From: Candidatus Saccharimonadota bacterium
GTDB lineage: Bacteria > Patescibacteriota > Saccharimonadia > Saccharimonadales > Saccharimonadaceae
NCBI GenBank assembly: GCA_017460065.1
Contig: JAFUBT010000002.1
Coordinates: forward strand, 62,001-126,000
Direction: 5' to 3'
DNA: 64,000 bases
Below are positions 21,592 through 48,600 of this stretch, in pieces (position 1 is the stretch's first letter; each line of letters begins with the position of its first letter). Both the position numbers and the translations under genes were made by a program. Below the pieces are notes generated by a model. The model ran no database searches. It was not told the DNA's origin and saw only the letters and a list, made by a program, of their open reading frames with translations.

Positions 21592-21695
21592 ATCATCTGT
21601 TATACTGTAGGCAGGGGAACTTAAGTTTTTACTGATTTTAATGTTTGATATGCACCTTCTCCTTTGAAAAATCTGTGCATAGGAAAGAGGAAAAT

Positions 21696-23270: not shown

Positions 23271-24242
23271 ATGAGCGTGAATAACGCGGTACTTTCGGGC
23301 GGTGCAGATAACGGAGCGGCGAAACCCAAAATCACTTCGCCGAACATCAAGAGTGTTGCTGACGAGCGACTGGATAAAAGGCCCGATGCGGAGTCTCCGC
23401 GCAAAGCTAGTGAGACAGCTAAAATCGACGGTGTTCCCATTGCGGACGAGCACGTTAAATTCCGTGCACGGGATATTCGCCCCTTCAATTTAGGTAAGCT
23501 TTTTGTCAAGGTCGAAGGCTCCGAAGAGCGTCGTCGTGCCATCCAGCGCGAATTACATCAACAGCGCAAAGAGAGCATCAAAGTTCAAAAAGCCTCTGAG
23601 CGCAGCAAGAGGCAAAAAGCCCGCCGAGCTGCTCGCCAAAGTCGCCGCGACAAAATTGACGCCACTTTTTGGCGCGGCAAACGCAAATTTATCACCATCT
23701 CTATTCTCCTGCTCGTCATCATCATTGCTGTTACTGCCCCATTACTTATCGAACACGTCATCAAGCCGGCGCTTGACCGCTACCACTTTGACGCAACAGA
23801 GCAAGCCAAAACTCAAGCTACCAATCGCGCCGCAGACCATTACCAAACAGCACTTGATCATCTCGAAGAGCAGGAATACTCTGAGGAAGCGCTCGCCAAA
23901 GTATCGCAAGATTTTCGCAATCATCTGGCATCTGCCAGCGATATCGAAAAAGTTTATCTTGCTACGAGTTTCGCGCAAATTGTCTACGACGCCACAGGGA
24001 GCGCCAATCTTGCTATTGATATATTGTTAGAGTTTCCGCCTGCCGAATCTGTTTCGGACTGGGTGAAAATCGAATATTACGCTCCGCTCGGCGGTTATTA
24101 TGAGCGAATTGGGGATGAGGAAAAGGTCGCAGAATACAACAATGTAATCGATGGGCTCATGCCAAGGCTAGAGGCAAGACCCGTAGAGAGGAAAAGCGAC
24201 GATGGATCATCTGGCCAAGATTTTAGCGAAGAAGAGCAGTAA
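23271..24242 (+). CDS. Cassette 1 membrane protein: basic coiled coil, one TM, extracellular TPR-like domain
   Basis: 323 residues. Residues 1-75 are disordered. FVKVEGSEERRRAIQREL at about 79-96 is a motif shared with cassettes 2 and 3. Residues 95-140 form a basic helix, 144-166 a TM (FITISILLLVIIIAVTAPLL), and 185-300 paired helices of TPR type (AADHYQTALDHLEEQ; YERIGDEEKVAEYNN). With the basic side inside, the TPR-like part lies outside the cell. No known family is recognised. Its end overlaps the giant protein gene by 41 bases, so the two are co-translated and probably partners. Confidence 0.8.
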   Translation: MSVNNAVLSGGADNGAAKPKITSPNIKSVADERLDKRPDAESPRKASETAKIDGVPIADEHVKFRARDIRPFNLGKLFVKVEGSEERRRAIQRELHQQRKESIKVQKASERSKRQKARRAARQSRRDKIDATFWRGKRKFITISILLLVIIIAVTAPLLIEHVIKPALDRYHFDATEQAKTQATNRAADHYQTALDHLEEQEYSEEALAKVSQDFRNHLASASDIEKVYLATSFAQIVYDATGSANLAIDILLEFPPAESVSDWVKIEYYAPLGGYYERIGDEEKVAEYNNVIDGLMPRLEARPVERKSDDGSSGQDFSEEEQ

Positions 24243-27200: not shown

Positions 27201-27951
27201 GACGCGCTATACCTCAACCGATAATAGTAGCGCCTTAACTGGCGGCTCCAATGAAGCGTCCGCCGTAGAGCTCAAGCTTGAAGGCGCCTGCCAGTATGAT
27301 GCCGATAGCGGGGCATATACCGCACAAGGCGTGAGTGGCACGCCGAGCTTCCGCTGTCTAGAAAACGGCACTTACTACACCCGAGTGCTTGGCACGGCCA
27401 AAACCGCCAACGGCACGCGTACGGTCGTCGACGCCTCTGGACATCAAACTACAACCTACGTTGACCTTTGGACTTGGACAGACGGCCATCATCCAAGTAA
27501 TACTTATGTCATTTACGTTGATAGCACGCTTTATATCAAACAGAATTTCCGTTACGGTAGTCTAACCGATCGCGAAAATACGCAGTATCAAACTATCAAC
27601 GAGGTCCCGCAGACTATCTTCATCGCTGACGATATCAAAGTTGCAGCTAATGTCCAACATCTCGATGCCTGGCTAATCGCGAAGAACAGTATCGACACTT
27701 GCTATCCAGAAAATGGCGCCGGTGTCAGCGTCGCGAATTGTAACTCTCAATTAACGGTTACTGGTCCGGTTATTACCAAGAAACTATTCTTGAATCGTAC
27801 TTTTGGCGGCCAAGGCGGTACGCGAAATAACTCTCAACCAGGCGAAATCTTCAAACTCAGTCCGATGGTTTATCTCTGGAGCTATTCGCAATCACAGCGA
27901 TTCTCGCAGGCCATCACGACTTTCCAACGCGAAATCCCCACCCGCTACTAG
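24202..27951 (+). CDS. Giant secreted protein of cassette 1 (putative adhesin)
   Basis: 1,249 residues. Signal peptide 1-37 (FLVFLVLAVAAFCLF, cleavage near TYA). A Cys-containing N-terminal domain follows (Cys57, Cys68; GGFWHLGG; FAFCYSPD). Two beta-sandwich-like repeats each start FRHxI and end LAPGE...CQ..Y, then a segment with MCEGAELSNQY, a segment around KYQVIKFTV, the FGSWADYDLMAGGS domain, an extra Cys-bearing insert near 27250-27560, and a C-terminal beta-solenoid-like domain (HLDAWLIA, SIDTCYP, QLTVTGPVITK). It ends EIPTRY. No TM or sorting signal at the C-terminus, so retention must be through another component. An AGAGGAAAAG ribosome binding site precedes ATG. Function unknown; surface adhesin is inferred. 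Confidence 0.85.
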   Translation: MDHLAKILAKKSSKRFLVFLVLAVAAFCLFNATPTYAGGWQGGGTFAPAVGGGGGGCDSYSNMYRIDCAGWSWIYYKYIGNQSANGESVKVYDIAELDWATMTEDWNSKWHVTIDKECAKVGGFWHLGGNAQGDSSNHFVINSRYESVYWVKKGTWGHRDTYNWGSVKGIRQYEKVRSGNIDHYLRNRNQSTWIYRSTRTAKYETVLNEYREFYKYYHNTTTNVSAIPDNIFAFCYSPDMVKKEVTYAGQSSIVDGSDNGDVSSKGGQFTITFRHQIRKVSSTPSNYTPGSNWFTKVSGGGSVRSGTYKGTSTSFVNVLDPNQYFKVTGTLAPGEKRNVCQQMTYNSKVVNGTITSSDTTRQCRNVSRGIATFSGDVVGRVGDVENDASSDAPVEINTPTATISFRHHITRTGGDDKAGGTAATPWYTVVSGKDQSGGNVSPMGTARPQSSGHKTSLLALNQGEDVIKYEDETFTVSLAPGETMTFCQTLHYDSVVDATGGNQHASTTRCVRVHRAGRKCGDLEYGVAQGKNFGQLSVRKRNTWQSTAPSAPEAFNINQREAKLEVWTRPGDWVAFRADMCEGAELSNQYNEINRDISYTISASEDQYNGTANPTTWDNASLKGRANIGKGIFPGNTYDYAARSPQDASQNYEITTDHLGKSFSQQLKWTDLWISNSQVDAVHHPGGATWENTATATVHTPYNYVATPSVSIGTSHVMPGSFLGRLSTVITAAPRVNPIVNGTEEYATRTKRSKYQVIKFTVNREVSLEQFSTNVSGAYIHDPTGNARLTTEWCISRIPAAAGVSGCNQAIEPSNLGTADARLEANGSTTITRLTPFVSDSEPIGNKICFVAAVWPADSHDSQGAELTDTSDQSVAMTESGNYWRISEPSCVVVAKKPNFQVRASGAFAEQNITTSISKRGIPGSLFGSWADYDLMAGGSINGMGSGASLWGAKSEPMKRACYFSAMSFTNAQCNTNKVGEMPLHPYLASSPKSTFDRIMTRYTSTDNSSALTGGSNEASAVELKLEGACQYDADSGAYTAQGVSGTPSFRCLENGTYYTRVLGTAKTANGTRTVVDASGHQTTTYVDLWTWTDGHHPSNTYVIYVDSTLYIKQNFRYGSLTDRENTQYQTINEVPQTIFIADDIKVAANVQHLDAWLIAKNSIDTCYPENGAGVSVANCNSQLTVTGPVITKKLFLNRTFGGQGGTRNNSQPGEIFKLSPMVYLWSYSQSQRFSQAITTFQREIPTRY

Positions 27952-27991
27952 ACTAACCGCGTACGGTTTTACCAAAAAACATTTTTGCTTA

Positions 27992-28000
27992 TGCTAAAAT
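27992..28000 (+). promoter_or_regulatory. Extended -10 of cassette 2
   Basis: TGCTAAAAT ends 8 bases before ATG 28009. The region ttTGCTTATGCTAAAAT is nearly repeated before cassette 3. Confidence 0.65.
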
Positions 28001-28008
28001 GTTTTTAT

Positions 28009-28821
28009 ATGGGCAAAAACGATGTCGCTCCTGCCCGGTCCGCAGGAGAGCAAGAAGCTGGGTCGCAGCCAGGCAAAGAGCTGCATTTTGATTCCAAGAA
28101 AATCGACCAAAAACAAAAACCTGAATATTTCGTTAAGGTCGAAGGCGCCGAAGAGCGCAAAAAGGCCGTCGTCCGCAAACTCAAGGAGCAGAAGGAGCAA
28201 CTCGCCAAGCAGGCCAAGCAAAACAAACGCGACGCCAAACTCGAAGCCTTCAAGCAGGCTCACCGTAGTCGTTTTGCGAAGATTAAATCTGCTGTCGGCA
28301 ATTTCCTCAAAAAACACAAACTGCCACTACTAATTATTGCTGTTGCACTCCTAGTGGCCCTCGCCGGCTGGATGGTTTATCGGGCTCTAAACCCGCCGTT
28401 GACGGAAGATGAGCGGTCTGTCGTGGAGTCATTGGATCGCGTCTCTTCGCTGGACGCCGACTCGTTCCGTGAAGAATTAAGTTCTAGAGAAAAAGACGAG
28501 AACGGCTCTTTCCAGGCCGCACTTAGGTGGGGGGAGGAACAAGCTGAGTCGACGGACGATCAGCACACTAAATTTATCTATTATTATATTTTGACGAACC
28601 ATGTCTTAAGTGATGAAAACTATTACGATAAAGCACTCGAGTACGGGGGAAAGCTCGAGGCCCTCGCTCAGGATGACGGCGAAAAGTACCTGGCCTATAA
28701 CATGCTTGCGTCTACCTATAGGCAATTAAATAATCTTGATCAATATCGTCTATATCGCGATAAAGCAGCAGAATGCACGAGGAATGATGCATTTAAAATC
28801 GTCACTGAAGGAGTATTATGA
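28009..28821 (+). CDS. Cassette 2 membrane protein, TPR-like
   Basis: 270 residues, paralogue of the cassette 1 and 3 proteins. FVKVEGAEERKKAVVRKL at about 40-57, a Lys-rich coiled coil to about 95, TM at about 103-122 (LPLLIIAVALLVALAGWMVY) followed by RALNPPL, then an acidic helical-repeat domain (FQAALRWGEEQAES; YDKALEYGGKLEALAQDDGEKYLAY). I chose ATG 28009 over the in-frame ATG 27985, which lies before the -10. Its TGA overlaps the next ATG (ATGA). Confidence 0.82.
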   Translation: MGKNDVAPARSAGEQEAGSQPGKELHFDSKKIDQKQKPEYFVKVEGAEERKKAVVRKLKEQKEQLAKQAKQNKRDAKLEAFKQAHRSRFAKIKSAVGNFLKKHKLPLLIIAVALLVALAGWMVYRALNPPLTEDERSVVESLDRVSSLDADSFREELSSREKDENGSFQAALRWGEEQAESTDDQHTKFIYYYILTNHVLSDENYYDKALEYGGKLEALAQDDGEKYLAYNMLASTYRQLNNLDQYRLYRDKAAECTRNDAFKIVTEGVL

Positions 28822-31800
28822 CAATTAAGAAACGAACGGCACGACTCACCGTCCTTATTTTGATATTATCTTTAGGTCTGTTTGTACCTAGCGGAGTAAG
28901 CGCCGCCAGTGGCGGGCAGAGCACATCAGCGAACTCTGGCGCTTGTGGCACCTCATTCTATAGAGGCAAATTCCGCTATATGGTACCGCCCGAGTTTCCG
29001 CTGGGTACATGCGAGGACGCCGGTATATCGTTCGCTTATTTCGAGTACGACGTAGACTATGAAGTGGATATAAGCATGGGGCCAACAAACGACAAGGGGG
29101 GTGGCACTGTGATAATCAAGGGCTCCGAATGTCTTGAGACGGGAGGCTTTTATCACCTAGGGTATACGGATATCAAGGACGATCTTTGGTGGTATTCCGG
29201 AGACGGCACGGAAGTGCATATTAATAGCACGAGTAACAATTACCCATTAAGTATAGGCAACCCAAATATGCGAGGATCTATCACGTACTCCGGCAACTGG
29301 GATTCGGCCCTTGGTATGGGGCATGGAATTCAGGAGATATACGTAGATGGCAAGCTAGTGGCCCATCTTGTTGGTTTTGTAGATAAAAGCACGGCTTCTC
29401 AACATTATGAGCAGTGGCGGAAGTATTCTGGCTGGCCTGACGAGTGGGAAGGCGGGCTCAATTCCTTCTGTTGGGGAGAAGGTCTAAGCAATACGACTTT
29501 CTGGGGCAGTATAGACGGTTATGTTAATGGTTCTTACTTGAGCTCTGGCTCAACCAAGACGATACATGATAATTCCGCTCTCGTGAGATTCAACCATACA
29601 ATTCACCGAAACAACGATGGCGAGGACAAGAGTATAGGTACGAAATACTCTGTCGGGGGAGATCTTCGCACACGCTCGGAATCCAAAGTTTCATTATATA
29701 AAGGCAGTCAGGCTAGCCCTCACATGACTAGTAACGATGAAGTTTATGTATCGCCTGGACAAAGTAAAACATTGCAGCAGACCCTGTACTATGACGCTAC
29801 GGCCAACTCAAAAACTTCATGGGATAGCACGAGCGAAGGTCCCTACACCATGACTATCTACCGCCCGTCCACTGGAGATAATGCCATCAACGGTTGGACG
29901 AAGGCTCGAGTCAATAACAAAGACACCGCCAGTGGGGACAAAGTTACGGTCGGTAGTGACGGTAAGTATACTATTAGTTTTCAACACACCCTCCGCCGTG
30001 GCAGTGACGCCGCTGGTGGCACGGTAGACGCTAACTGGTCTACGTCCGTATATAGCAAAGATAGCGCTGGCCGCACCGTCAATCCAGGCGGCACTGCCCG
30101 CCGTGGCACCCAAACCCTCTCCCAAAACCAAGAAGCCAACGTTGTCTCGTACAACACCGAAACCTTCAGCGGCACACTCCTGCCAGGTGAAACCCGTACA
30201 TTCTGCCAAACCCTAACCTATGATCATAATATTTCTTACCCCAACAACAAGTCTCGTAGCGCTAGCGAGTATTGCGTGAATGTGTATCGGGAACCTGCTG
30301 AGTATGACAATAAATGTAAGATAGAAAAACAGCCAGCGACGTTTGGCGTCAACAGTGGCGAGAATATCGGCCGACTGACTCTGCGAAAACGCAACGATTC
30401 TCCGTTGGATACCCAACCGCAAAACACCGGCGATCATAGCGTCAAGGTTTACGCTAAGCCATCAGACTGGTTCTCCTTCTCCGAAACAATGTGCGAGGGC
30501 GCCGAGATGGCCAATCAATATCACGAAACGAACAAGCCGATTGAGTATCGTATTGAGGCGACCAGAAATAGCTCTCCCAGCAACGCAATTATGCGCGGCA
30601 GTATTGCTGCAACTACGCCAACCAGATGGACAAACGTAGGCATAAAAAGTCGCAACTTTGCTGGCGTCAAAGACATCTGGAACGGTAGCGATTATCAAGA
30701 AAGTAATACATCACCAGCAAGTGGTCGACATGACGTCGCAGAAGACGACGCTGGTAAAACCTTCAAGCAAATCCTCACGTGGACTGACCTCTGGATGACG
30801 AACGGCAAAGAGGTGGCGGCACATAATGGCAGCAGCAAAGCTACCGCAACCGGCATCGTCGAAGTGCCGTATAACTACATTAACATCCCACACGTTGACC
30901 GAGATAACGGCATCCCCGTTTCGCCGGGCAAGGACCTTGAAATTACGGTCACTATCGACACTGAACCGCGCAAAAATACACCCGTTAACGGCGATGAACC
31001 GTATAAAACTAAGACCAAGGAGTCAGCATGGCAGATTATTTCCTATACTGTCGATGACCGCAATAAGGCCAGCGACGAGGTGACGACGACAAATGAGTAT
31101 TATAATGGCGCCGGCGACCTAGATCTCAGCCAGAGCAGTGTCTGTGGTGCATGGATGCAGGGCGGCAACTCCAATACTTGCAAGCAAGCCAGCAAAGGCT
31201 CTGGCATTGTCGGCGAGAATCCGATTGGCCAAGATGGCCAACGCACCAACATCTATGTTCCAGATGGTACCCCTGTCGGTACGAAGGTCTGCGCTGTCGC
31301 CGCTGTCTGGCCGGCCGATAGCCACAACAGCAATGGCGCTACGGCAGACATCACTAGCGAAGAGATGGAACAGGCCGCACTCGACGAGGGGGAGGCCTCG
31401 TCCGGCACGCAGCGCGCTTGGAAGATTTCTCAGCCTACCTGCGTTACGGTCGCAAAACGCCCAACTATCCAAGTTAGGATGAGCGGCGCTTATGCCGAAA
31501 ACCGGATTGACACGAGTACGACAAGTCGCGGCCCATCCAGCGACACTACCGCAATGCGGCGCTACGGTTCGTGGGCAGACTATGATTTGGTCTCTGGCGA
31601 CGAAACGCTCGGCATGGCTTCCGGCGCAGCGTTTTGGGGTGGCTTGCCATTATCGGACATATCGCTGTCGGATATGACGGTCTGTAAGGTTTCGTCCCTG
31701 ACCTTTACGAATAACGAGTGTGCTAATCACAGCGGCAATCGTGTGGTCGGTAATTTTGGCAGTCAGAACAAGAGCCTCGCCTCTTACCCCGGCACCGCCT

Positions 31801-32375
31801 ACGAGCGTTTGCGTAGCCGCTACGCCATTGAAGCTAACGAATATACTGCCAATGACTTAGGCGGCTTCACGGTCGTTGCAAATAATCTCGCGTCAGAAGA
31901 TTCCTCTTATGGCGCAAAGGTCATTTACCATGAAGGCACACTTAACATCACTGGTGATATCCGTTACGAAGACAAAGCTTACGCTAACATTGACGAACTT
32001 CCCCAAGCAATCATCATTGCTGACACAATTCGAATCGCCCCCAACGTTACCCATCTTGACGCCTGGCTAGTGGCGGACAGTATTGACACTTGCTATGTCG
32101 CACCTGGCACGCGCGCAGTGGAATATCCGGGGCCTAGTGATAACGAAGTCAGCGTCCGCACTTGCCCCCATCAACTTACCGTTACCGGCCCAGTCATTAC
32201 TAAGCAACTGCAGCTCAACCGCACCTATGGCGGCGACGGTGGTCAGCAGAGTAATTCCGAGGCGGCCGAAATCTTCAAACTTAGCCCTATCACTTATCTC
32301 TGGAGCTATGCCGAAACCCAGCGCTATTCGCAGGCGGTGACTACGTACCAGCGCGAACTGCCGACGCGCTACTAA
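28818..32375 (+). CDS. Giant secreted protein of cassette 2 (putative adhesin)
   Basis: 1,185 residues, paralogue of the other two giants. Signal peptide 1-30 (LTVLILILSLGLFVPSGVSA). N-terminal Cys domain (ACGTSFYRGK; GGFYHLGYT; SFCWGEG), two beta repeats (RFNHTIHRNN; FQHTLRRGSDAAGGTV to LLPGETRTFCQTL), MCEGAEMANQY, the ESAWQIISYTV segment, YGSWADYDLVSGDE, and the C-terminal HLDAWLVADSIDTC/QLTVTGPVITK domain ending ELPTRY. It lacks the extra insert found in copies 1 and 3. GAAGGAG precedes ATG. The first 330 codons use ATA, GGG, AGA and CTA more freely than neighbouring genes. Confidence 0.85.
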   Translation: MTIKKRTARLTVLILILSLGLFVPSGVSAASGGQSTSANSGACGTSFYRGKFRYMVPPEFPLGTCEDAGISFAYFEYDVDYEVDISMGPTNDKGGGTVIIKGSECLETGGFYHLGYTDIKDDLWWYSGDGTEVHINSTSNNYPLSIGNPNMRGSITYSGNWDSALGMGHGIQEIYVDGKLVAHLVGFVDKSTASQHYEQWRKYSGWPDEWEGGLNSFCWGEGLSNTTFWGSIDGYVNGSYLSSGSTKTIHDNSALVRFNHTIHRNNDGEDKSIGTKYSVGGDLRTRSESKVSLYKGSQASPHMTSNDEVYVSPGQSKTLQQTLYYDATANSKTSWDSTSEGPYTMTIYRPSTGDNAINGWTKARVNNKDTASGDKVTVGSDGKYTISFQHTLRRGSDAAGGTVDANWSTSVYSKDSAGRTVNPGGTARRGTQTLSQNQEANVVSYNTETFSGTLLPGETRTFCQTLTYDHNISYPNNKSRSASEYCVNVYREPAEYDNKCKIEKQPATFGVNSGENIGRLTLRKRNDSPLDTQPQNTGDHSVKVYAKPSDWFSFSETMCEGAEMANQYHETNKPIEYRIEATRNSSPSNAIMRGSIAATTPTRWTNVGIKSRNFAGVKDIWNGSDYQESNTSPASGRHDVAEDDAGKTFKQILTWTDLWMTNGKEVAAHNGSSKATATGIVEVPYNYINIPHVDRDNGIPVSPGKDLEITVTIDTEPRKNTPVNGDEPYKTKTKESAWQIISYTVDDRNKASDEVTTTNEYYNGAGDLDLSQSSVCGAWMQGGNSNTCKQASKGSGIVGENPIGQDGQRTNIYVPDGTPVGTKVCAVAAVWPADSHNSNGATADITSEEMEQAALDEGEASSGTQRAWKISQPTCVTVAKRPTIQVRMSGAYAENRIDTSTTSRGPSSDTTAMRRYGSWADYDLVSGDETLGMASGAAFWGGLPLSDISLSDMTVCKVSSLTFTNNECANHSGNRVVGNFGSQNKSLASYPGTAYERLRSRYAIEANEYTANDLGGFTVVANNLASEDSSYGAKVIYHEGTLNITGDIRYEDKAYANIDELPQAIIIADTIRIAPNVTHLDAWLVADSIDTCYVAPGTRAVEYPGPSDNEVSVRTCPHQLTVTGPVITKQLQLNRTYGGDGGQQSNSEAAEIFKLSPITYLWSYAETQRYSQAVTTYQRELPTRY

Positions 32376-32442: not shown

Positions 32443-33261
32443 ATGGGTACAAACGATGTCGACCCTGCTTGGTCCGCAGGGGAGAAAACAGCTAGGCCTG
32501 TGTCTGATAATAATGTAGTTTTTGACTCCAAAAATATCGACAGCCGGCCAAAGACCGAATTTTTCGTCAACGTTGAAGGCGCCGATGAACGCAAAAAAGA
32601 GGTCGTCCGTCGCCTCAAAGAGCAGAAACAGGAACTAGCCAAACAGGCCCGCCAAGACAAGCGCAACGCCAAGCTTGCCGCCTTCGAGCAAGCCCGCCAG
32701 ACCCGTCGCGCCAAAATCAAAAACACCCTCAAGCATTTCTTCAAAAAAGCCAAAATCCCACTCATCGCCCTTTGTGCGACCGTTTTTGTGGCCCTCGCCG
32801 GCTGGATAGTTTACCGGGCTTTGAACCCACCCATGTCAGAAGAGATAAAGATGGGCGTAGAGTCGATTAAGCGGCAACCCGAGCTAAATGCCGATTTTTC
32901 TGCGGAACTTGACGCTAGAGCCCATGCCGATGATGGCTCATTAGAAGACGCGATAAAATGGGGCGAAGAACAAATCGCAAACGCGGAAGATGACCATGTG
33001 AAGTTTATTTACTATAAGGAATTAGCTTATTTCATCGTCCATGAGGATGATTATAAAGATAAAGCAATCGAATACGCCCACAAATTAGAGGAGCTGGCGC
33101 AAGATGACGGCGAGAGGTATCTCGCGTATATGACTCTTTCGACAATTTATGGTTTCGCGGGAGACCATGAGAAATCTGACGAATATTACGATAAGCTCGA
33201 AGAGGTAAAAGCACCTATGGAGTACGCAATAGAGGAGGAGATAAAGAATGGCGCGCAGTAG
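32443..33261 (+). CDS. Cassette 3 membrane protein, TPR-like
   Basis: 272 residues, closest to the cassette 2 protein: FVNVEGADERKKEVVRRL, basic helix (KQELAKQARQDKRNAKL), TM at about 104-124 (IPLIALCATVFVALAGWIVY) then RALNPPM, and an acidic helical-repeat domain (LEDAIKWGEEQIANAEDD; AIEYAHKLEELAQDDGERYLAY). Predicted topology is N-in, C-out. It overlaps the giant gene by 14 bases. Specific role unknown; pairing with its own giant protein in each cassette suggests a dedicated chaperone or anchor. Confidence 0.82.
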   Translation: MGTNDVDPAWSAGEKTARPVSDNNVVFDSKNIDSRPKTEFFVNVEGADERKKEVVRRLKEQKQELAKQARQDKRNAKLAAFEQARQTRRAKIKNTLKHFFKKAKIPLIALCATVFVALAGWIVYRALNPPMSEEIKMGVESIKRQPELNADFSAELDARAHADDGSLEDAIKWGEEQIANAEDDHVKFIYYKELAYFIVHEDDYKDKAIEYAHKLEELAQDDGERYLAYMTLSTIYGFAGDHEKSDEYYDKLEEVKAPMEYAIEEEIKNGAQ

Positions 33262-36200
33262 AGTAAATGCAGCAACGGTGTTTGCGGTCTTATTTTTGGC
33301 AACTACTGCATGTTTGTTCATATTTGGTAATAACGTTAGCGCCGAATCTGGGAATAATAATACGGTTACTCATGGTTGTGGCTTGCCGAACTATTACCGC
33401 GGCAAATTACCCGACAGTTTAGTGACGTGCATGGCGGTCGGTGCGTCGTTCGCATATTTTCAGTACGACACGGATCAGGATTATACCATTGACATGGGGC
33501 CGGTAACTCCTGCGACTGATTTGGGGAAGGATTTGATTAAAGGATGCGCAAAATATGGTGGCTTTATGCACCTTGGCGTTGTTGATGGCAAGCGGGGTAC
33601 ATGGCGGAAAGGCAACATCCGCGTCGATTATGACGGCAATATTAGTTTGGGCAATTTTGACGTAAGTTCAATCGAAGTTTACGATAGCAGCGCAACTCCT
33701 GGGGCGCAAAACGTGTATGTGAGTGGTGTCAGCAATCCTATTGCTCATCTAGTGGACTTTGTTGACAAGGACGAAGCAAGGCGACGCTATGATCAATGGT
33801 TGCAAGTTGCTGACGATAAAACTGATTATTGGGCGAGAGGCTCGCTAGGATGGTTTTGTTGGAGCCCTACCATAGACAAACCACCCGAAGGTACTCTCTA
33901 TAGCAAAACAGAAGGATTCGTCAACGGTCAAAAGAAGAGTAACAACTCTACTACGACCATTAACGCCAATAGTGCAAACATTAAGTTTGAACATACAATC
34001 TACCGCAACAACGACGGCATTGATGGCTATGTTTCGGAATGGCACGTGGTCGTCGGAAGTGATTGGAAAAAAGACGAAAGCTATGTAACTATAGAAAAAG
34101 GTGGCTCGCGCATGGTCCATATGGACTCGCCGCGTACAGTCGATATCTTACCAGGCCAAACTCGCTCGTTCTACCAGCAACTCGGCTATGATACTAAAGC
34201 CAGTGGCGACGATTCCAACACGCCGGCTGCTGCGCCAAAGTTCACTCTCGATATTGTGCGCCCTAAGGCCGACTCCATCAGCGGCCGCGTGCGCGCAAAA
34301 GTCAATAACGGCGAAGTAGGTAACAACTCGACGACGGTCATCAACTCAAGTGACGGTAGCTTTACGATTAGCTTCCAGCACGAACTGCAACGTGGCAACG
34401 ATGCTGCTGGTGGCACGGTCGATGTGCCATGGTCGACTTCTGTATCCAGTAATGATAGCGCTGGCAGAAAAGTCAACCCGGGTGGTACTGCGAGAAGTGG
34501 CACAAAAACTCTTGGCAATAATAGCGGTTGGCAAAGCGCCGTCTCCTTCAACACGGAAACTTTTAGCGGCACCTTATTGCCAGGTGAGACCAAGACCTTT
34601 TGCCAAAACCTCACTTATGCAAGCGTCATAGACTACGCTGGCGGCAATAGAAATTCCAGCACCGGGAACTATTGCGTGAGTGTGCGCCGCGCAGACGGAG
34701 CGCTGGAGGCTTGCGGAGAAAATAAGAAGTATGGCGTCAATGAAGGGCACAACTGGGGCGAGATGGCTGTATCTACTAATAGCAACATAACCCTATTCAC
34801 TCGAGATACCGAGGCTTTTGATACTGGCGAAAGAATAGCCGAAGTCTGGTCGAAGCCAGGCAATGACTTCACTTTCGAAGAAACGATGTGTGAGGGCGCT
34901 GAACTCCCCAACCAGTACCGCGACTATGGCAAAAGTATCACCTACAAAATTGAGGCTAACCGACCCGGCAGCGAAATCATGAAAGGTAACCTCGCTTATT
35001 CGACGCCAATGTCATGGAACAACGCCAACGTCAGATACTGGTCTAGTGCGGGTAGAGATATCTGGGGTGGTACAAGCTATACCGCCAATAACAATTCGCC
35101 TCGCTCCGGCACCCACAAAGTCACGAATGATTATCTTGGTAAAACCCTAGAGCAAAAACTCACCTGGACCGATCTCTGGATTGGGAATGGGGGAGTGATT
35201 GACTCGGCGCATAGCGGCAGCAATAACGCCACGGCCATTGGTCGCATCCATGTACCGTATAACTATAAAACCACTACTAGAACCGAAAACCCTCTAAATG
35301 ACCCATACTCGCCCGGTACCCCAAGCCGCACAGTTAAAACTTTTATTTCCATTGAGGAGCGCGTCAATAAACCAGCCAATGGTGTTACACCATATGCAAC
35401 CAAGAGCAAAGAAACCAAGTGGCAAGTTGTGTCGTTCCGAATCGACGGGAATACAGACGCCGATAGAGTCCAGCTCAAAAACGATGGCTATTACGGCGGT
35501 GGCATCATTAACGGAGACACGGATTTAGCTGGCGTTTGTACTGGTTGGATGGGTGGCTCGCCATTTGCATGTCAGAAAATTGATAGCGGTACAGATATTT
35601 TTGATCCTGGTGAGATTGAATTAGAATCTAGTATGTCAATCCCAGATAATGTTCCTATCGGCACTAAAATCTGTACTGTTGCCGCTGTCTGGCCGTCTGA
35701 TAGCCATAATTATGATGGGGATATTATTGATGAAAGCCAAGAAAAGAATGGCATGTCGGACGAAGAAGATTTATCAAGTCGTCGCTGGAAGATTTCCCAG
35801 CCCACTTGCGCTAGCGTTGCAAAACGGCCAACTATCCAAGTACGGATGAGCGGTGCTTATGCTCAGAACTCTATCAATACCAGCACCTCCGACCGCATTT
35901 TGTTTGGCACGAACGAGCGGCATCGCTATGGCTCATGGGCTGATTATGATTTAGTCTCTGGCAAAGAAGAGACGCTCGGTATGGCTTCCGGCGCAATGCT
36001 CTGGGGCGGTATCTACCCAATCCCGAATGAAAACCTAAAATATTGCCGCGTTTCGCCAATGACTTTCACTAATGATAGGTGCTACGCTTCCGAAGGGCGC
36101 ATGGTCGGCAAGTTCGGTGTCGATAAGTCTCTCGGCTCAAGCCCAGAGCGCCTTTACCAGCAAATTATTGACCGGTATACGGGAGGGGGGCCGACGGTCA

Positions 36201-36910
36201 GCGTTCGTTCAGGAGAAGTGCACGTAATCAAGAACACTGGCGCCTGTAGATATAATGAAACCACAGGAAAGTATACGGCAGTGGATGGGTATGGGCGCAC
36301 AGGGAATACCAGTTTCGTCTGTTTAGATAATGGCACATATTATACGGAAATAAATGGAGATGCAAAAACTGATGGCGGCGGAACGACATGGGGGAGCACG
36401 GATGGGGTGAACGCTAATACAACCTATTCGACCCTAGTATCTGGTACGCTGTATATCGACAAGAATTTTCGCACCGGAGATGTTAGCTTGTCTGACCCCA
36501 CGAAAGCAAAATATTCTTCTATCGCTGAAATACCCCAACGCATCTTCATCGCCAAAAACATCAAGATTGCCCCTAATGTTACGCATCTCGACGCCTGGTT
36601 AATCGCCGATTCCATCGATACCTGTTATCCAGGCAGCGGCGCCAAGGTCAGCGTCAGCAACTGTAACGCACAGTTGACTGTTACTGGTCCGGTCATTGCG
36701 AAAAATATTGCTCTGAACCGCACTTATGGCGGCGGGCGCACATCTTATACGGGCAGCCAGCTCAATCGAGCCTTCTTCCAGAACGAGAATTCCGAGGCGG
36801 CTGAAGTATTCAAGTTGAGCCCAACTGTCTATCTCTGGAGCTACGCGCAAATGCAGCGCTATTCGCAGGCAGTCATCACCTATCAACGAGAACTCCCCGC
36901 CCGCTACTAA
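33248..36910 (+). CDS. Giant secreted protein of cassette 3 (putative adhesin)
   Basis: 1,220 residues. Signal peptide 1-31 (VFAVLFLATTACLFIFG, then NNVSAES). N-terminal Cys domain (HGCGLPNYYRGK; YGGFMHLGV; GWFCWSPT), two beta repeats (FEHTIYRNNDGIDG; FQHELQRGNDAAGGTV to LLPGETKTFCQNL), MCEGAELPNQYRD, ETKWQVVSFRI, YGSWADYDLVSGKE, the Cys-bearing insert (TGACRYNETTGKYTA; FVCLDNGTYYT) and the HLDAWLIADSIDTC/QLTVTGPVIAK C-terminal domain ending ELPARY. GAGGAGGAG precedes ATG. It is followed after 50 bases by the prepilin operon, the strongest contextual hint that these proteins are pilus-linked. Confidence 0.85.
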   Translation: MARSRVNAATVFAVLFLATTACLFIFGNNVSAESGNNNTVTHGCGLPNYYRGKLPDSLVTCMAVGASFAYFQYDTDQDYTIDMGPVTPATDLGKDLIKGCAKYGGFMHLGVVDGKRGTWRKGNIRVDYDGNISLGNFDVSSIEVYDSSATPGAQNVYVSGVSNPIAHLVDFVDKDEARRRYDQWLQVADDKTDYWARGSLGWFCWSPTIDKPPEGTLYSKTEGFVNGQKKSNNSTTTINANSANIKFEHTIYRNNDGIDGYVSEWHVVVGSDWKKDESYVTIEKGGSRMVHMDSPRTVDILPGQTRSFYQQLGYDTKASGDDSNTPAAAPKFTLDIVRPKADSISGRVRAKVNNGEVGNNSTTVINSSDGSFTISFQHELQRGNDAAGGTVDVPWSTSVSSNDSAGRKVNPGGTARSGTKTLGNNSGWQSAVSFNTETFSGTLLPGETKTFCQNLTYASVIDYAGGNRNSSTGNYCVSVRRADGALEACGENKKYGVNEGHNWGEMAVSTNSNITLFTRDTEAFDTGERIAEVWSKPGNDFTFEETMCEGAELPNQYRDYGKSITYKIEANRPGSEIMKGNLAYSTPMSWNNANVRYWSSAGRDIWGGTSYTANNNSPRSGTHKVTNDYLGKTLEQKLTWTDLWIGNGGVIDSAHSGSNNATAIGRIHVPYNYKTTTRTENPLNDPYSPGTPSRTVKTFISIEERVNKPANGVTPYATKSKETKWQVVSFRIDGNTDADRVQLKNDGYYGGGIINGDTDLAGVCTGWMGGSPFACQKIDSGTDIFDPGEIELESSMSIPDNVPIGTKICTVAAVWPSDSHNYDGDIIDESQEKNGMSDEEDLSSRRWKISQPTCASVAKRPTIQVRMSGAYAQNSINTSTSDRILFGTNERHRYGSWADYDLVSGKEETLGMASGAMLWGGIYPIPNENLKYCRVSPMTFTNDRCYASEGRMVGKFGVDKSLGSSPERLYQQIIDRYTGGGPTVSVRSGEVHVIKNTGACRYNETTGKYTAVDGYGRTGNTSFVCLDNGTYYTEINGDAKTDGGGTTWGSTDGVNANTTYSTLVSGTLYIDKNFRTGDVSLSDPTKAKYSSIAEIPQRIFIAKNIKIAPNVTHLDAWLIADSIDTCYPGSGAKVSVSNCNAQLTVTGPVIAKNIALNRTYGGGRTSYTGSQLNRAFFQNENSEAAEVFKLSPTVYLWSYAQMQRYSQAVITYQRELPARY

Positions 36911-36948
36911 AAGCGTTAGTAAAATAGACAAAAACCAAAAAGCTCATG

Positions 36949-36954
36949 TATAAT
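36949..36954 (+). promoter_or_regulatory. -10 of the minor-pilin operon
   Basis: TATAAT ends 6 bases before ATG 36961; it also excludes the in-frame ATG at 36946. Confidence 0.6.
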
Positions 36955-36960
36955 ATACGT

Positions 36961-37869
36961 ATGGTTAAAAGAGGTGGTGCAAAGAGCACTTCTGGCTTCA
37001 CGATTATTGAGGTCATGCTTTCGCTGGCCATTAGTGGTATGGTTTTGGTTGGGGCACTAATCGGAGTAAGCTCGACCATTTCGCGTCAACGCTACCGCGA
37101 TGTTGTCGAAAACACCGCTTCGCTTCTTCGTACGCAGTACGATTTGGTTAGCCGTATTCAGATCGAGAAGCGCAACGATGATGACGATTGTGACAAGATT
37201 ATGCAAAACATCTCTTTCGAGCCTAACGGCAAACTTGGTCGTGGCCGTAGTAACTGCAGTGTTTACGGCGTAGTTGTCACGCTAGGGCTCAATGGCGGTA
37301 CGCGTATGCAGGTCAACAATCTAATCGGCATGGACTATGATGCGTATCGTAAAACCCTGGAGGACCCCGACGAAGTAATTAAGGACATGAGTGAGTTAGA
37401 CCTGTTCAAGGCACTAAGCGTAACTAATGTCTTGAATGACGGCAGCGTCTGCCGCGTCACTAACCTTCTGTACGACGAGACCTACAAATGGGATGCCACC
37501 CTAGAGACCACAGTCAATAACCAATCGGCTGAATATATTATTATGATTGCGCGTTCGCCACGTAGTGGTGCGATTCATACATATACGTATAATTATTCTG
37601 CGGAAGTTGGGCTAGATTCGTTTGATTATACTGATATTGCCGGCGGCCCATGTTCGTCAACTCAAGGCGGCGTCAGGAAGGCTACGCTCAAGGACGCCTT
37701 TGACAATAACAAATTTGTTATGAACGAAGACGTCAAGCTCTGTATCAATTCCGCCGACATGTTGGCTACTTACGGCAAGCGCCGCATGATTAAAATCACC
37801 GCTAATGGCTACAATTCTTCGGCCGTCGCATTAATGAATATGGATGATAGCGGGAACGAATGTCAATGA
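36961..37869 (+). CDS. Minor prepilin, PulG/PilE-like, first gene of the operon
   Basis: 302 residues. Class III signal with basic MVKRGGAKSTSG, cleavage SG|FTIIEV (Glu +5) and a hydrophobic helix to about residue 36 (SLAISGMVLVGALIGV). The body of about 260 residues is long for a pilin and has several Cys (DDCDK, SNCS, VCRV, PCSS, LCINS, ECQ), so it is probably disulfide-stabilised and extracellular. Its stop overlaps the next gene. Confidence 0.85.
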   Translation: MVKRGGAKSTSGFTIIEVMLSLAISGMVLVGALIGVSSTISRQRYRDVVENTASLLRTQYDLVSRIQIEKRNDDDDCDKIMQNISFEPNGKLGRGRSNCSVYGVVVTLGLNGGTRMQVNNLIGMDYDAYRKTLEDPDEVIKDMSELDLFKALSVTNVLNDGSVCRVTNLLYDETYKWDATLETTVNNQSAEYIIMIARSPRSGAIHTYTYNYSAEVGLDSFDYTDIAGGPCSSTQGGVRKATLKDAFDNNKFVMNEDVKLCINSADMLATYGKRRMIKITANGYNSSAVALMNMDDSGNECQ

Positions 37870-38744
37870 GTAAGGTCGAGAAGCAACATTTCAAGCATGG
37901 CGACACCTTGGTAGAGGTGATGTTGGCGCTGACTATTTTTGCTTCGCTCGCCGTGATGGCCATTCATACTATGAATTCTGGCATGTATCAAGCTGAGCGC
38001 GCTATCGAGATCACTATGGCGCGAAATGAGATTGACTCTCAAGCCGAAGCACTCCGTTTTATTCAGAATAATTATGTCGCCGAACGTGAGCACCAGTCAG
38101 ACCGCCAGCAATATTCTGCACTCTGGAACGCAATCATCAAGAACTATGTTATCGAAGCTAGTGATTTTCGCAGCGCCGACTATGATATTAACGCCAGTAA
38201 TATTCGCACCTGTGACGACGCCTACAACGCCCAAATGGGCGGCGTCAGTCGTGACAATACCACCAAAAAAGCTCTCGCCATCAATACTCGCTTGCTCGAA
38301 CCGAGCAGCGGATTATATGACCCAAATACTGTTAAGCCAGATCCGAGTAACCCCTATAGCAACCTTCTGAGCGAAATCCTCATCGATAAAAAAGCCGTTA
38401 ATAGTAACGATTCTCAATATATTCTCCGACCAGCCCCACTGTACCCACGCGGCGTCTACTCTTTGTTAAGCCTGGGGCACATTAACGACGCGGTCGGCTC
38501 CGCGACTGATGCGACGAATTCTGACAACACCTTAGCCGAGGATTATATCTACCGTAAGGCGGAATCTATTGAAGGCATCTGGATAATTGCCGTCAAGGGC
38601 GATAACTCCAATATTGTCCGCTCTGACCGCAATGCCGAATACTATGATTTCTATATCCGCAGTTGTTGGCAAGCCGTCGGCCTTAGCGCTCCTTCGACTT
38701 TGACCACCATCGTGCGTCTATATAACCCGGAGGTAATCGACTAA
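37860..38744 (+). CDS. Minor prepilin, PilV-like, second gene
   Basis: 294 residues with signal KHG|DTLVEVMLALTIF (Gly -1, Glu +5, Asp instead of the usual aromatic at +1) and a helix into ASLAVMAIHTM. ATG 37866 (MSKVEK) is an equally good start. The remainder is a globular extracellular domain with two Cys (RTCDDA; RSCWQAV). It overlaps genes on both sides by 1-10 bases. Confidence 0.83.
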   Translation: MSMSKVEKQHFKHGDTLVEVMLALTIFASLAVMAIHTMNSGMYQAERAIEITMARNEIDSQAEALRFIQNNYVAEREHQSDRQQYSALWNAIIKNYVIEASDFRSADYDINASNIRTCDDAYNAQMGGVSRDNTTKKALAINTRLLEPSSGLYDPNTVKPDPSNPYSNLLSEILIDKKAVNSNDSQYILRPAPLYPRGVYSLLSLGHINDAVGSATDATNSDNTLAEDYIYRKAESIEGIWIIAVKGDNSNIVRSDRNAEYYDFYIRSCWQAVGLSAPSTLTTIVRLYNPEVID

Positions 38745-39598
38745 TGGCGACAAAGAACCACAAAAAAGGCTTCACGATTATCGAGACGACGCTTGCGACC
38801 ATGTTTTTGGGCATCATCGTGTTGGCGGTTGCCAACCTTATTATCCAGATGACGCAAATTTACCAAAAGGGTCTTGCTATGCGCTCAGTCAACGCAGTTG
38901 GGCAACAAATTGTCGAGGATATGGAGAGAAAAATCAACTCCGCCACCTTCCTATTTGATATAGATACTAATCGTGATGGCTATCTTGTCAATCGTGAGAT
39001 TATTGAAAATATGCCTAAATACTTCCGCGAATGGAACGTTTCCGCCAGTGATGCGCGTCAGAAAGCTGGCGCATTTTGCATTAGTGATTATAGCTATGTC
39101 TGGAACACTCCGCTCGTGCTTAATGATGCTGACGATAAAGGTATTCTTCTCGGTACAGACACAACTCCTGCACGCCAATACAAATTAGCTAGAGTCTATG
39201 ACCCTGGCCACCTCGTATGTGAGCAGCAGTGGTTGGTGTCATCTGGCGAAACTCCAGACCCGAATCGCAAGACCTGGAACGGCGATAACTATGAAATCAT
39301 GCTTGGTGTCAAAGAATCGCCCGTCGAAATGATCAATAATGACGAGACAAACCTTGCAATTTATGATTTTACAGTTTTGCCGATTACCCAGAGCACTATC
39401 ACGAAACAAAGTTTTGTATCGGCCACGTTCATCCTGGCTACTGCCCGTGGTGGCGTCAATATTATGAGTAGCGGCGACTATTGCCAAGGCGAGGGGATGA
39501 CTGGTACAGATTTCAGTATGGCAGACTTTGCTTATTGCGCAGTAAATAAGTTTAATTTTTCAATGCGAACCGGCGGCGATGCGAGTAAAAATGGCTAA
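38744..39598 (+). CDS. Minor prepilin, PilW-like, third gene
   Basis: 284 residues with basic MATKNHKK and cleavage G|FTIIETTLAT (Glu +5), helix through FLGIIVLAVANLII. The globular part contains FCISDYSYVW, LVCEQQWLVSSGE and DYCQGEG. The TAATG overlap couples it to the second pilin. The set of three prepilins followed by a PilX-like gene resembles a fimU/pilV/pilW/pilX priming module. Confidence 0.83.
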   Translation: MATKNHKKGFTIIETTLATMFLGIIVLAVANLIIQMTQIYQKGLAMRSVNAVGQQIVEDMERKINSATFLFDIDTNRDGYLVNREIIENMPKYFREWNVSASDARQKAGAFCISDYSYVWNTPLVLNDADDKGILLGTDTTPARQYKLARVYDPGHLVCEQQWLVSSGETPDPNRKTWNGDNYEIMLGVKESPVEMINNDETNLAIYDFTVLPITQSTITKQSFVSATFILATARGGVNIMSSGDYCQGEGMTGTDFSMADFAYCAVNKFNFSMRTGGDASKNG

Positions 39599-39614
39599 AA
39601 CTAAAGGAGATAAC

Positions 39615-41078
39615 ATGCAACAGACAACAAAAACCAAAAAGGGCGCTGCCGCCATTTACACAGTGGTGTTCTTCTGCTTGCTGATTGGTATTGTTACGCT
39701 CGGCTTTATTAGCATTATGCTGCAGGATATTCTCGGTTCAACTAATTACGACCTATCGCAGTCCGCTTACGATTCAGCCCTTGCGGGCGTTGAGGACGCT
39801 AAAGTTCTTCTCCTCAAATACAATGCATGTCTTAGCAACAGCGAACGACTCGGCAGCGGCGGTAGCGCTGGCGACTGTAATGACATAATCTCTGCCGTAA
39901 ACACCTCTGGTTCCAGCGACGATTGCGACCTCGTACGTGATTCGCTTGGTCGTGCCCATGGCGAAGATGGCGCCAATGAAACGCTTATTCAAAGTCAGAA
40001 TTCCAACCTGAACAATAATTCCAAGGAGCTAACCGATAGCATTGACATGGCCTACACTTGCGTCAAGATGTCTCTCGCTTCGGACGATTATTTAGGCACC
40101 TTGACCAAGACTTCTGACGTTAAGCTTATTCCGTTACGTACTGGTATTGGCAGCGCCTATAACGACGCAGGTGGGGACGGTAATTTTAATCGTATTCGTG
40201 TTGAATGGTACAGCAACGACGATAACCGCGTGCTCGTCGATGGGTTGGGGAGTAATCTTGATGACGCGTATGCCACCACTCTGCCTTCTGCCAAAGTCTA
40301 TACTACGTCAAAGACTGCCATGGGCGGTACTGATGATAATTGGCATAATTTCCGCACCAAAGCTACTTTGGCGCCACCAATCCGTGTTAGCCTAATCCAA
40401 GCAGATCAGACTTTCTATATCGGCGATTTTGATGGACATAACGGCAATAACACTGATCGCGGCACTCTAATTCTCCGCCCAGTCCGCAGCGAAGCTGCAA
40501 GCCTCTATAACCATATCCCGAGTAATGCCGGTACTGGTTTTACTGGTTCAACTATCTCGAGCTCAACTAATTATACTGATGGTAGCAATGCCACCAATAG
40601 CCCAATCGACATAGACTGCCGTGACAGTGCCTACATGTCTACCCACGACGAACTGTATGCGTGCTCGGCCGAACTTGACGTCCCTCCGACTATTCGTGGT
40701 ACTGCCAATAATGGCGCACGTTTCTTAATGCTATCGTCGCTTTATGCCGAACCAGATACTTCGTTTAGCGTCAAACTCTTGAATTGCACAAGCGACGATG
40801 AATGCAAAACGGTTAAGTTCGTCGGCGTCCAGACTAAAGTCGATGCTACTGGTCGCGCCAATGACCTCTTCCGACGCGTCGAGGCGCGGGTTGAGCTGCA
40901 GGATGTTAGCTTCCCACTGGCTAAATACGGCCTCAACGTCTACGGCGATGGCAGCGACGAAGGTAGTATCTTCAAGAACTACTGGGCTACCTACAACTGT
41001 TGGTACAAGGAAAACGGCACCGATCACACCTGCGACGACTATACGCGCATTAGTGGGCAAGGTAGCTTTGGCGACTAG
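39615..41078 (+). CDS. PilX-like membrane/pilus protein, fourth gene
   Basis: 487 residues. The N-terminus QQTTKTKKGAAAIYTVVFFC continues into a hydrophobic helix (LLIGIVTLGFISIMLQDI), like PilX N-terminal segments, which lack the canonical Glu +5. The large Ser/Asn/Asp-rich extracellular domain has paired Cys. I chose ATG 39615 because AAAGGAG lies 5-12 bases before it; ATG 39579 inside the upstream gene is the alternative. Size suggests a tip or adhesive role, similar to PilY1 partners in other systems, but this is inference. Confidence 0.8.
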   Translation: MQQTTKTKKGAAAIYTVVFFCLLIGIVTLGFISIMLQDILGSTNYDLSQSAYDSALAGVEDAKVLLLKYNACLSNSERLGSGGSAGDCNDIISAVNTSGSSDDCDLVRDSLGRAHGEDGANETLIQSQNSNLNNNSKELTDSIDMAYTCVKMSLASDDYLGTLTKTSDVKLIPLRTGIGSAYNDAGGDGNFNRIRVEWYSNDDNRVLVDGLGSNLDDAYATTLPSAKVYTTSKTAMGGTDDNWHNFRTKATLAPPIRVSLIQADQTFYIGDFDGHNGNNTDRGTLILRPVRSEAASLYNHIPSNAGTGFTGSTISSSTNYTDGSNATNSPIDIDCRDSAYMSTHDELYACSAELDVPPTIRGTANNGARFLMLSSLYAEPDTSFSVKLLNCTSDDECKTVKFVGVQTKVDATGRANDLFRRVEARVELQDVSFPLAKYGLNVYGDGSDEGSIFKNYWATYNCWYKENGTDHTCDDYTRISGQGSFGD

Positions 41079-45611: not shown

Positions 45612-48600
45612 GTGAAAACAAACACACGTAGGCGTGCACCAAGAGCACGTAAAAAACTTGGAATTTTTGTCATTTTTGCCTCGCTACTAATCGCAGTAGG
45701 AGGATTGATATTTGGTATTCATAATGCGCAGGCCGCTTTGGCCGAGCTGAATCCAGATGATTGGTATCTGGAATTGGTGTTTTTTGACTCCACTATCAAC
45801 AAGGGCAAGGATCCAGTGACTAACGAGCAGTGGGTTATCGACACGTCTGGTGTTTCCAATAGCTACAGTCGCAATATTGTCATGCAGGTCTCGTACCGCA
45901 ATTACGAGCTCGACCGCGACTATGCTCCGGGCGAGCTACAAATTCGCGTGCCCAACCCATTCGCATCTGGCGTCCTTTCAGCGGCGCAACTCAGCGTGCA
46001 GATGGCCGTTAGCGCCAACAATAGTTCCCAGCATTCCTACGACTGGAACTACAACTCCGGCTCCTACAATAGCGAAGGATTCATCTTCACCAATAACAAG
46101 ACTTTCGAAGCTGGTACGAACCTAGACGGTAGCATCCAGGTTGCTTACGCAGTCACCTCTAATACCGAAACGCGTGAAAAATACGAAGACAGCTGCACGC
46201 ATACGCTCGACTACGATAGTCTCCAGGCCACTATGAACGGTGCCATCACCAGCAACGTTGCGCAGTTGCATTATTCGCGGACTTATTCGCACCCTTGGAC
46301 GCGCGCCACTTACAACATCACCAAGACCGCCATCAAACTGAACTCTTATGACAACCTCGGCGAGGGCGCCGACCAGTACACCTGGGTGCGTTATCGCATC
46401 GGCGGCCGCAGCAACGAGTCGTACTACATGTCCTACGCTACTAGTAGCTACGACAACTACATTGGCTTGTCGAATTATGAGATGCGCGATACTTTCCCCG
46501 ACGACGTTAAGGTGCTCGATATGACCGGCAAAGCCATCGAGCCAGAGGAAGACGGCACCTATGACATCAGGCGCAAGGGCACTTCCAATAGTAGCACCTC
46601 GCCTTGTGGCTCGTACTACTATTGCCGCGAAATCATCGTCGGTTATCCAAAGGACGTCTACAACGCCGAAAATGACACGCTCAATATTTCTAACACCGTC
46701 GAGCTGCGCGGTACCTATTCCGATCGCACCGAAGAAGAAACTCTGGCCACTTCGACTATTTCGCTTGATTTATCACAGTTCTCGTTCAACTACAGCGGTA
46801 GCACCATTGGCATTAACAAGAAGTTCAACGGCAATGCCGGCTCTGGCAGCACCGGCAGTAATTACAAATACTATTACCAAGAAATCGTCGATGGCGGCTC
46901 GACTGGACGCTGGAATAACACTATTAGCACCAAATACATCGGCTACAACTATGACGTCCAAGTCGGTGATGATCTGGTCTATTTCATGAGCGAGGACGGT
47001 CAACTCGAGCGTTTCAACGAAAACGAATATTTCTTTAAGTCGGTCTATATCCCTGACTTCAAGAACGCCAACGGTAGCACGGTATCGTCATCCAAGTACC
47101 AACCCGCAGTTTATGTGCGCAAACGTGGCCAGAGCAACTACGAATTGTATCAAAATTACACCAGCACTGGCCGTACCGTAAACTTCACTGAAAATGACCA
47201 AATTGTCGCTTGGTATGTTGAGGTCAAGGGGCTGACTGAGAGTATTACGTCTGGCAACTTTAGTACTCAGCTGACCATTAAATCCGACGACATTGCCGAG
47301 AACGGCACGATTTATAATTTCAACTACATCAAGTATCTGCGCGACGGCGTCCTAATGAACCCAATTGACGAGTCCAATTATGGTAACCAAATGACACTCG
47401 ATACGGTCGGCGCTTACGACCAGGAAACCTACGGCGTTTATCTACAGCGTTCTTACGACAGTGCCGAGTGGGAGAATCACCAGATCGGTACTATCACGCG
47501 CTACTTTAGCGCCTACAAAGACGTCAATAGCTCATCGCCAAGCTACAATCCGGACACCGAATCATTCAACGGCACGTATACGCTCTATGGCTATTTCTAT
47601 GAGTATAGCTATTACGCTTTCCAGGATATCAACCGTAACATAGAGCAACTCAAGGACGAGGACTGGATTCGTGGCATTAATTACTACGACCTCTTGCCGA
47701 TGGGCATGGAGCTAACTAGTACACCAGCAGATATCATGGCTTCTGCCGGTAATTCATATTGCAACAATTATAGTGGCTATTATAATCAAAATGGCGAAAA
47801 TCTCTTTACCTCATCCAACGCTTGTAAGGAATTCGCCAAGACTCACACGAGCGTCGAAATCACCAAAAACTGGCACGAAACTGGCCGCACCCTACTAAAA
47901 GTCAAAATCGATTTCAGCGAGTCGCCATTTACCTCCATCACTAGTAATTCTTATAGCATCTACATGCCGTCGATTTCATTTAACTACAGTATCCCATATG
48001 ACGCTTACGTCGAAATTGGTCCGTCGTACCGCAATTACGTATATATGGATATAGATGGCCCGAGCCTGACAAGCGGCATTAAGGATACCGGACGCTATGA
48101 CGCTGCCGCTAGTGACATTAACGAAAATGGCGTCACCGACGAATACATTGCCTACAACTCGCGCGACGTCAACCTTCTCATGGCTACTTCTACGTCGCAG
48201 GATTTGCAGACTTCGAGCCTCACCGAACATAGCGGCAAATACGACATCGAGGAAACTCGCAGCGGTTTTAGCGAAGATTATTCTTACAAGCTCAGGATGC
48301 GTACGGGCGCTAGCAAGGTTACCGATGCCGTAATTTATGATTCTATCGAGACCGCCACTACTGACGGCGCGGAATCAGGCTGGCAGGGTAGCTTCGCCGG
48401 CGTCGACACCAGCTACGCCGAGCAGCAGTTGGATTATTATGATCATAACGTCAAAGTAAAAGTCTGGTACTCGACGAACCCCAATGCCGGTAAACTGGGC
48501 ACTGATTCGTCCTGGCAGGCGTACGACGAAGCCACGACCGACAAAAGCAGTGTGAAGGCTTTGGCTTTTGAATATCTCAATCAAGAGGGTAATCCTGCTA

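Follow-up and report, generated by a model that had tools for sequence, protein, structure and literature searches.

Giant proteins linked to the type IV pilus genes of Saccharibacteria are probably interchangeable pilus-tip heads

The window, i.e. the whole stretch of DNA analysed here, comprises 64,000 nucleotides from an ultrasmall parasitic bacterium, Candidatus Saccharimonadota, with a genome of 652,520 bases in 9 contigs (G000:C7:62001-126000). Behind the gene rny (21645-23213) lie three pairs, each made of a membrane-protein gene, t, and a gene for a very large protein, here called a giant. These are followed by four minor-pilin genes, p1 to p4, and by a tRNA-Leu gene on the opposite strand. 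The features are listed below in window positions.

23271-24242, + strand: t1, partner of giant 1, with a basic cytosolic N-terminus, a single transmembrane (TM) segment and an extracytosolic part
24202-27951, + strand: giant 1, 1249 aa, with a Sec-type signal and a C-terminal gC domain (241 bits)
27985-28821, + strand: t2, partner of giant 2
28818-32375, + strand: giant 2, 1185 aa (gC domain 203 bits)
32443-33261, + strand: t3, partner of giant 3, which it overlaps by 14 nt
33248-36910, + strand: giant 3, an uninterrupted 1220-aa open reading frame (ORF) with a Sec-type signal, without a prepilin motif and without a C-terminal TM segment
35852-36907, + strand: solenoid region of giant 3, which starts just upstream of the GSWADY motif and runs to the gC end
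36242-36907, + strand: gC domain of giant 3, which defines the family, delimited by alignment
36925-36954, + strand: promoter-like site 5′ of p1 (11 of 12), a pattern match only
36946-37869, + strand: p1, minor prepilin in the FimU/GspH position, likely start 36961
37860-38744, + strand: p2, minor prepilin in the PilV/GspI position
38744-39598, + strand: p3, minor prepilin in the PilW/GspJ position
39579-41078, + strand: p4, protein in the PilX/GspK position, without Glu5

An earlier note on this DNA had described giant genes abutting a minor-pilin set on the same strand. The ORF coordinates bear this out for giant 3 and p1-p4, with two more t-giant pairs upstream. The 50-base gap given there between giant 3 and p1 is correct when counted to the ATG at 36961, and is 35 nt when counted to the first ATG. 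Each ORF of p1-p4 overlaps or touches its neighbour. The promoter-like site at 36925-36954 is the strongest such match in an 18-kb stretch and overlaps the first p1 ATG; its position before p1 argues against strict co-transcription. As the -10 element of this site ends 7 nt 5′ of the ATG at 36961, the p1 transcript could be leaderless. Elsewhere in the window, positions 45612-49232 (+ strand) encode a fourth large surface protein of 1206 aa, which was unmatched by the giant searches and carries a single Cna_B domain and, at its C-terminus, an LPDTS-plus-TM tail resembling a sortase anchor. A second PilB-like ATPase (1351-2961, - strand; PF00437, 310 bits) and a lone prepilin-like protein with the motif KAFTVLEL (6076-6468, - strand) are possibly part of a second, thin-pilus system.

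The four small proteins were described in the earlier note as three prepilins and a PilX-like protein, and the motifs agree. Prepilin motifs with Glu5 are present in p1 (TSG/FTIIEV), p2 (KHG/DTLVEV) and p3 (KKG/FTIIET), while p4 starts with KKG/AAAIYTVVFF and lacks Glu5. GspK and PilX likewise lack Glu5. The Pfam model N_methyl matched p1 at 24.5 bits, above its cut-off of 21.2, and p2 at 19.2 bits, just under it; p3 and p4 had no meaningful Pfam match. The NCBIfam matches were far under cut-off (gspI 24.3 bits against 44.35, pilV 17.9 against 52.2), p4 had none, and ortholog names from this source were dropped. The proposed likeness to FimU-PilV-PilW-PilX or GspHIJK holds for the pattern of signal peptides and Glu5; the named-family scores all fall under their cut-offs. 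Since p3 and p4 are each kept in 42 of the 45 genomes of the window's genus (g1), the set is not a chance assembly; across the order, 228 of 246 genomes have p4. The p4 protein is probably of the PilX1 kind known from TM7x. Some p4-like matches lie in unusually long open frames of 855-970 aa (genomes G170, G192, G106, G148 and G151), which perhaps bear grafted modules of their own.

Giants 1-3 are paralogues of 1185-1249 aa with Sec-type N-termini devoid of a prepilin motif, and giants 2 and 3 are 47% identical. None of the three matched a Pfam or NCBIfam family above cut-off. The C-terminal domain that the earlier note saw in all giants, ending near ELPxRY, is real: in each of the 51 ORFs scored, this domain, gC, comes last. 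We used a simple hydropathy scan, standing in for a signal-peptide predictor, on the 108 gC proteins whose genes are intact at the 5′ end and found a hydrophobic stretch near the N-terminus in 106 and near the C-terminus in none. A gC sequence search against the PDB gave nothing useful, a scan of viral contigs found no relative, and named database records with relatives of the family are mostly Saccharibacteria metagenome-assembled genomes. The PilY1 family PF05567 was absent by hmmscan from giants 1-3 (E up to 1) and from 60 relatives (E up to 0.01), and a genome-wide search that matched it in 0 of 148 genomes carries no weight, as its control matched nowhere either. As they have no PilY1 propeller, the giants were not filed as PilY1. 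DUF7305 was rejected as the family of gC, as it touched just one protein in a set of 60 (E 4.7e-4) and one in a set of 15 (E 0.13). A von Willebrand A (vWA) domain was found in three of 60 relatives, two of them just under the Pfam cut-off, and directly follows the signal in two of these three; the Pfam scan found none in giants 1-3. At L130:8839-12455 (- strand) a second ORF contains a vWA domain together with the second half of the solenoid region, whose first half ends the preceding gene.

The t genes accompany the giants closely. A t gene lies 5′ of 42 of the 44 giants of the genus that are away from contig ends, and the two exceptions look like broken giants; across the order, a single-TM gene lies 5′ of 50 of 64 gC genes. 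In the window, t3 has a weak TPR_8 match (15.2 bits, under cut-off). Two giants are split into overlapping or short ORFs (L041:3146-6545 and L068:1651-6061), by frameshift, decay, assembly error or phase variation. The gC proteins at L150:8709-12011 (- strand) and L163:8524-12057 (- strand) have an additional TM and helical region at the N-terminus, with no separate t seen beside them, and are perhaps t-gC fusions. A likeness of the t-position parts of L162, L163 and L150 to SurA/PrsA was dropped after a Pfam scan of all three gave no such domain; among 60 gC proteins, SurA_N_3 matched one.

The earlier note had guessed that the shared C-terminal domain is a beta-solenoid. The structure model of giant 3 residues 601-1220 agrees with this as far as a weak model can (mean pLDDT 58), and lends moderate support to the core idea of giants that belong to the pilus and share a C-terminal solenoid. 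Within model residues 461-560 the blocks reach pLDDT 62-88, with one at 47. A plain Foldseek search with this model gave no match at E ≤ 1e-3, and VIA-align was run on the Foldseek candidates. With the same pLDDT-58 model, VIA-align placed model residues 267-592 on two ice-binding proteins, 8x0z (FfIBP; Z 12.3, 185 aligned residues, 3.8 Å) and 6a8k (Z 11.7, 190 aligned, 4.0 Å), and residues 267-601 on ComZ (6qvi_B; Z 8.5, 187 aligned, 4.0 Å). The other VIA-align matches were mostly to Ig-like folds, on a different stretch. A full-length model of giant 3 was poor (pLDDT 36.6), the usable parts being Ig-like stretches at about model residues 190-450.

In the window's genus, a search of the 45 genomes with the gC profile gave 65 matches in 37 genomes. 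By distances taken by hand from the match listings, many of the genomes being drafts, 35 of these lie at most 16 kb from p3, in 25 genomes. A 36th (G017, locus L093) is parted from p1 solely by a contig end. The remaining 30 matches, or 29 allowing for G017, are not within 16 kb of p3. The p1 gene stands directly behind a giant in 26 of 42 cases and directly behind rny, with no giant, in 12; the others are at contig ends (3) or behind another gene (1). The earlier note had named giants commonly far from pilin genes as a refutation of its pilus-tip adhesin system, and within this genus the 30 distant matches and the 12 p1 genes behind rny partly speak against it. They also indicate a constant place for p1-p4 behind rny, with t-giant cassettes that either intervene there or stand elsewhere. 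The stand-alone t-giant pairs adjoin, for instance, glyS-like, uvrB-like and gltX-like genes, as named from their sequences. In six of the 45 genomes p4 is present and a gC match absent; all six are drafts, and two hold giant fragments. The genome to which the window belongs has pilM and ychF as immediate neighbours, without an intervening t-gC pair, and its p1-p4 do not follow pilD. Both ends of the type IV pilus (T4P) operon have moved in this genus and, in many genomes, stand together at a new site.

Across the order, iterated profiles that include their own members detect gC in 213 of 246 genomes and in 118 of 128 genera. We examined 63 loci: 60 that we picked from the listed matches, in most cases a single locus for each genus, and three more. 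Their 67 gC genes include 52 with pilM as the next gene, on the same strand and at most 400 nt away (median gap 53 nt); for the rest the next gene is p4 (2), p1 (1), t (2), gC (1), another gene (4) or none (5). The usual order is t, gC, pilM, pilN, pilO, pilB, pilT, pilC, pilA, pilD, and at locus L096 pilD is followed by p1, another prepilin, p3 and p4. The distance from gC to p4, again taken by hand and partly in drafts, was compared in the 86 genomes outside g1 with both genes listed. Leaving aside genus g27, the two genes lie within 17 kb of each other in 57 of 62 genomes, near opposite ends of the T4P operon: 55 at 5-17 kb (median 11.5 kb) and two at less than 5 kb. In the other five the genes are on different contigs, and no genome has them on a single contig at a greater distance. 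The 24 genomes of g27 have them at less than 5 kb (8), at more than 17 kb (6) or on different contigs (10). Genome G118 has two loci with gC and p4 and without p1-p3, which indicates p4 as the partner of gC. The synteny of giants and prepilins, which the earlier note wanted checked across Saccharibacteria, is thus, outside g1 and g27, a link to the T4P machinery operon: the true neighbour is this whole operon and not the minor pilins alone. A phylum-wide draw gave gC matches in 78 of 286 genomes, 58 of them outside the order by our count and mostly weak. In 20 chosen loci outside the order, gC is directly followed by pilM in seven and by pilN in one, and in one more it faces pilM and pilins; in the other 11 the Saccharibacterial profiles recognised no pil gene beside gC.

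The view that the giants belong to the T4P is well supported by gene order, both within the order and in part outside it. They might instead be ordinary surface adhesins that are secreted, do not become part of the pilus and have pilin genes as neighbours for historical reasons only, as the many t-giant pairs standing alone near unrelated genes in g1, and the loose linkage of gC and p4 in g27 as well, could suggest. Elsewhere in the order, however, the giants are fixed in the T4P operon, in some other classes too they lie 5′ of pilM, and they have no C-terminal TM anchor, all of which makes this explanation improbable. The missing anchor would also suit a cargo of the pilus machine, acting as a type II secretion system, that is released after export, and one assembly machine could carry out both pilus assembly and secretion. 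A C-terminal domain that is conserved in most genomes and a constant place in the assembly operon are more in keeping with a structural part than with cargo, and we regard release as cargo as very improbable.

We next compared six pairs of closely related giants, which come from four pairs of genomes. In these genomes p1-p4 are 92-99% identical, whereas the giants contain patches at only 54-85%. The divergent patches have dS values of mostly 0.7-1.2, against 0.1-0.3 elsewhere in the same genes, and such local jumps in silent change indicate exchange of segments rather than fast selection alone. In five of the six pairs the C-terminal 350 aa are 93-99% identical and the most divergent segment lies further out; the exception is giant B of G034/G035, in which the C-terminal part is the most divergent (83%).

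This variation also bears on an explanation that makes the giants part of the pilus machine in the envelope, namely an exit sleeve or an anchor that passes through peptidoglycan and S-layer in place of the diderm secretin, with t as its membrane tether. Such a part could well be coupled to a membrane protein like t, be nearly universal and adjoin the alignment genes pilM-N-O, and the extra N-terminal TM regions in the L150 and L163 proteins are in line with it. A fixed pore part, however, should be more uniform than proteins of 364 to about 1900 aa, and the swapping of distal segments between close strains, the several copies in some genomes and the vWA domains of the three relatives speak against it as well. 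We therefore consider it unlikely, though less so than the two explanations above.

On balance, the giants are probably interchangeable pilus-tip heads that grip other cells. We think it likely that they are non-pilin tip subunits, with a solenoid carrier docked on the minor pilins, distal parts that grip the host, t as tether and exchangeable tips. Gene order, conservation, the place of gC at the C-terminus, the missing prepilin motif and the exchange of segments are observed, whereas the tip position, docking on p4, adhesion and the role of t are what we infer. The pilus would be the main, retractile, PilT-bearing T4P of Saccharibacteria. Each giant would be exported by the Sec pathway and held by t, a putative dedicated membrane tether or chaperone, until it joins the minor-pilin complex. 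Its conserved C-terminal beta-solenoid, the gC region, would serve as carrier and dock on the complex of p1-p4, with the PilX-like p4 as the most likely site, so that the giant would be pushed outward ahead of all other parts as the pilus grows. Host cells would be gripped distally by the variable N-terminal and middle parts, which are Ig-like where they could be modelled. Within the window's genus the t-giant pair has left the machinery operon and multiplied to as many as three copies, which would allow exchange of tips.

Host recognition by Saccharibacteria is described as largely unknown in a study of Nanosynbacter lyticus TM7x, which reports that its locus one holds pilT and five pilins, that pilins of this locus are essential and that the targeted ones could not be deleted (PMC12206443). 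The pilT-bearing operon analysed here seems to correspond to that locus. The open-access literature searched names no adhesin for the pilus of the pilT locus and describes no such tip protein. A near-universal, secreted and variable protein tied to the pilT operon is a concrete and testable candidate for host recognition.

Among known systems, the closest parallel is PilY1/PilC (PF05567, IPR008707). Like the giants, PilY1 is a large Sec-exported non-pilin with a conserved C-terminal carrier, a variable N-terminal part and four minor pilins encoded alongside, and vWA domains occur in some gC relatives as in some PilY1 proteins. In Myxococcus, PilY1 and minor pilins are reported to form a priming and tip complex (PMC7541494). 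The giants differ in lacking the PF05567 propeller, in a carrier that models as a beta-solenoid and in the accompanying membrane protein t. The competence tip pilin ComZ of Thermus thermophilus (6qvi) shares the ice-binding-protein-like beta-solenoid, modelled in the giants, and the T4P context; its solenoid is reported to have FfIBP as closest relative, and its tip position has been argued (PMC6561018). In ComZ, however, the solenoid sits within a pilin and DNA binding has been shown, whereas the giants are no pilins and have Sec-type N-termini. PilX1 and PilX2 of TM7x are described as pilus parts with extra C-terminal domains, PilX2 being a proposed adhesin (PMC12206443), but PilX2 belongs to the thin pilus as a minor pilin and bears an RCC1 propeller, unlike the giants, which are non-pilins linked to the pilT-bearing operon. 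PilB of Streptococcus sanguinis is presented as a modular pilin with a carrier and effectors, vWA among them (PMC8179133); the giants share this design, although the PilB carrier is a pilin module. The carrier-plus-effector idea itself has been published for modular pilins and PilY1 (PMC8179133). With a conserved C-terminal carrier, variable distal parts, vWA domains in three of 60 relatives and four minor pilins, the giants fit this published pattern. Chances seem about even that Patescibacteria use a third kind of T4P tip carrier, a non-pilin beta-solenoid beside the propeller of PilY1 and the pilin module, which was already present when the phylum divided into its classes, has been kept since then and turned in some Saccharibacterial genera into a multi-copy, recombining set of host-recognition heads; these could decide which bacteria each episymbiont is able to seize. 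The best reading of the comparison is that the giants work like PilY1 on a solenoid carrier, yet are not PilY1 homologues.
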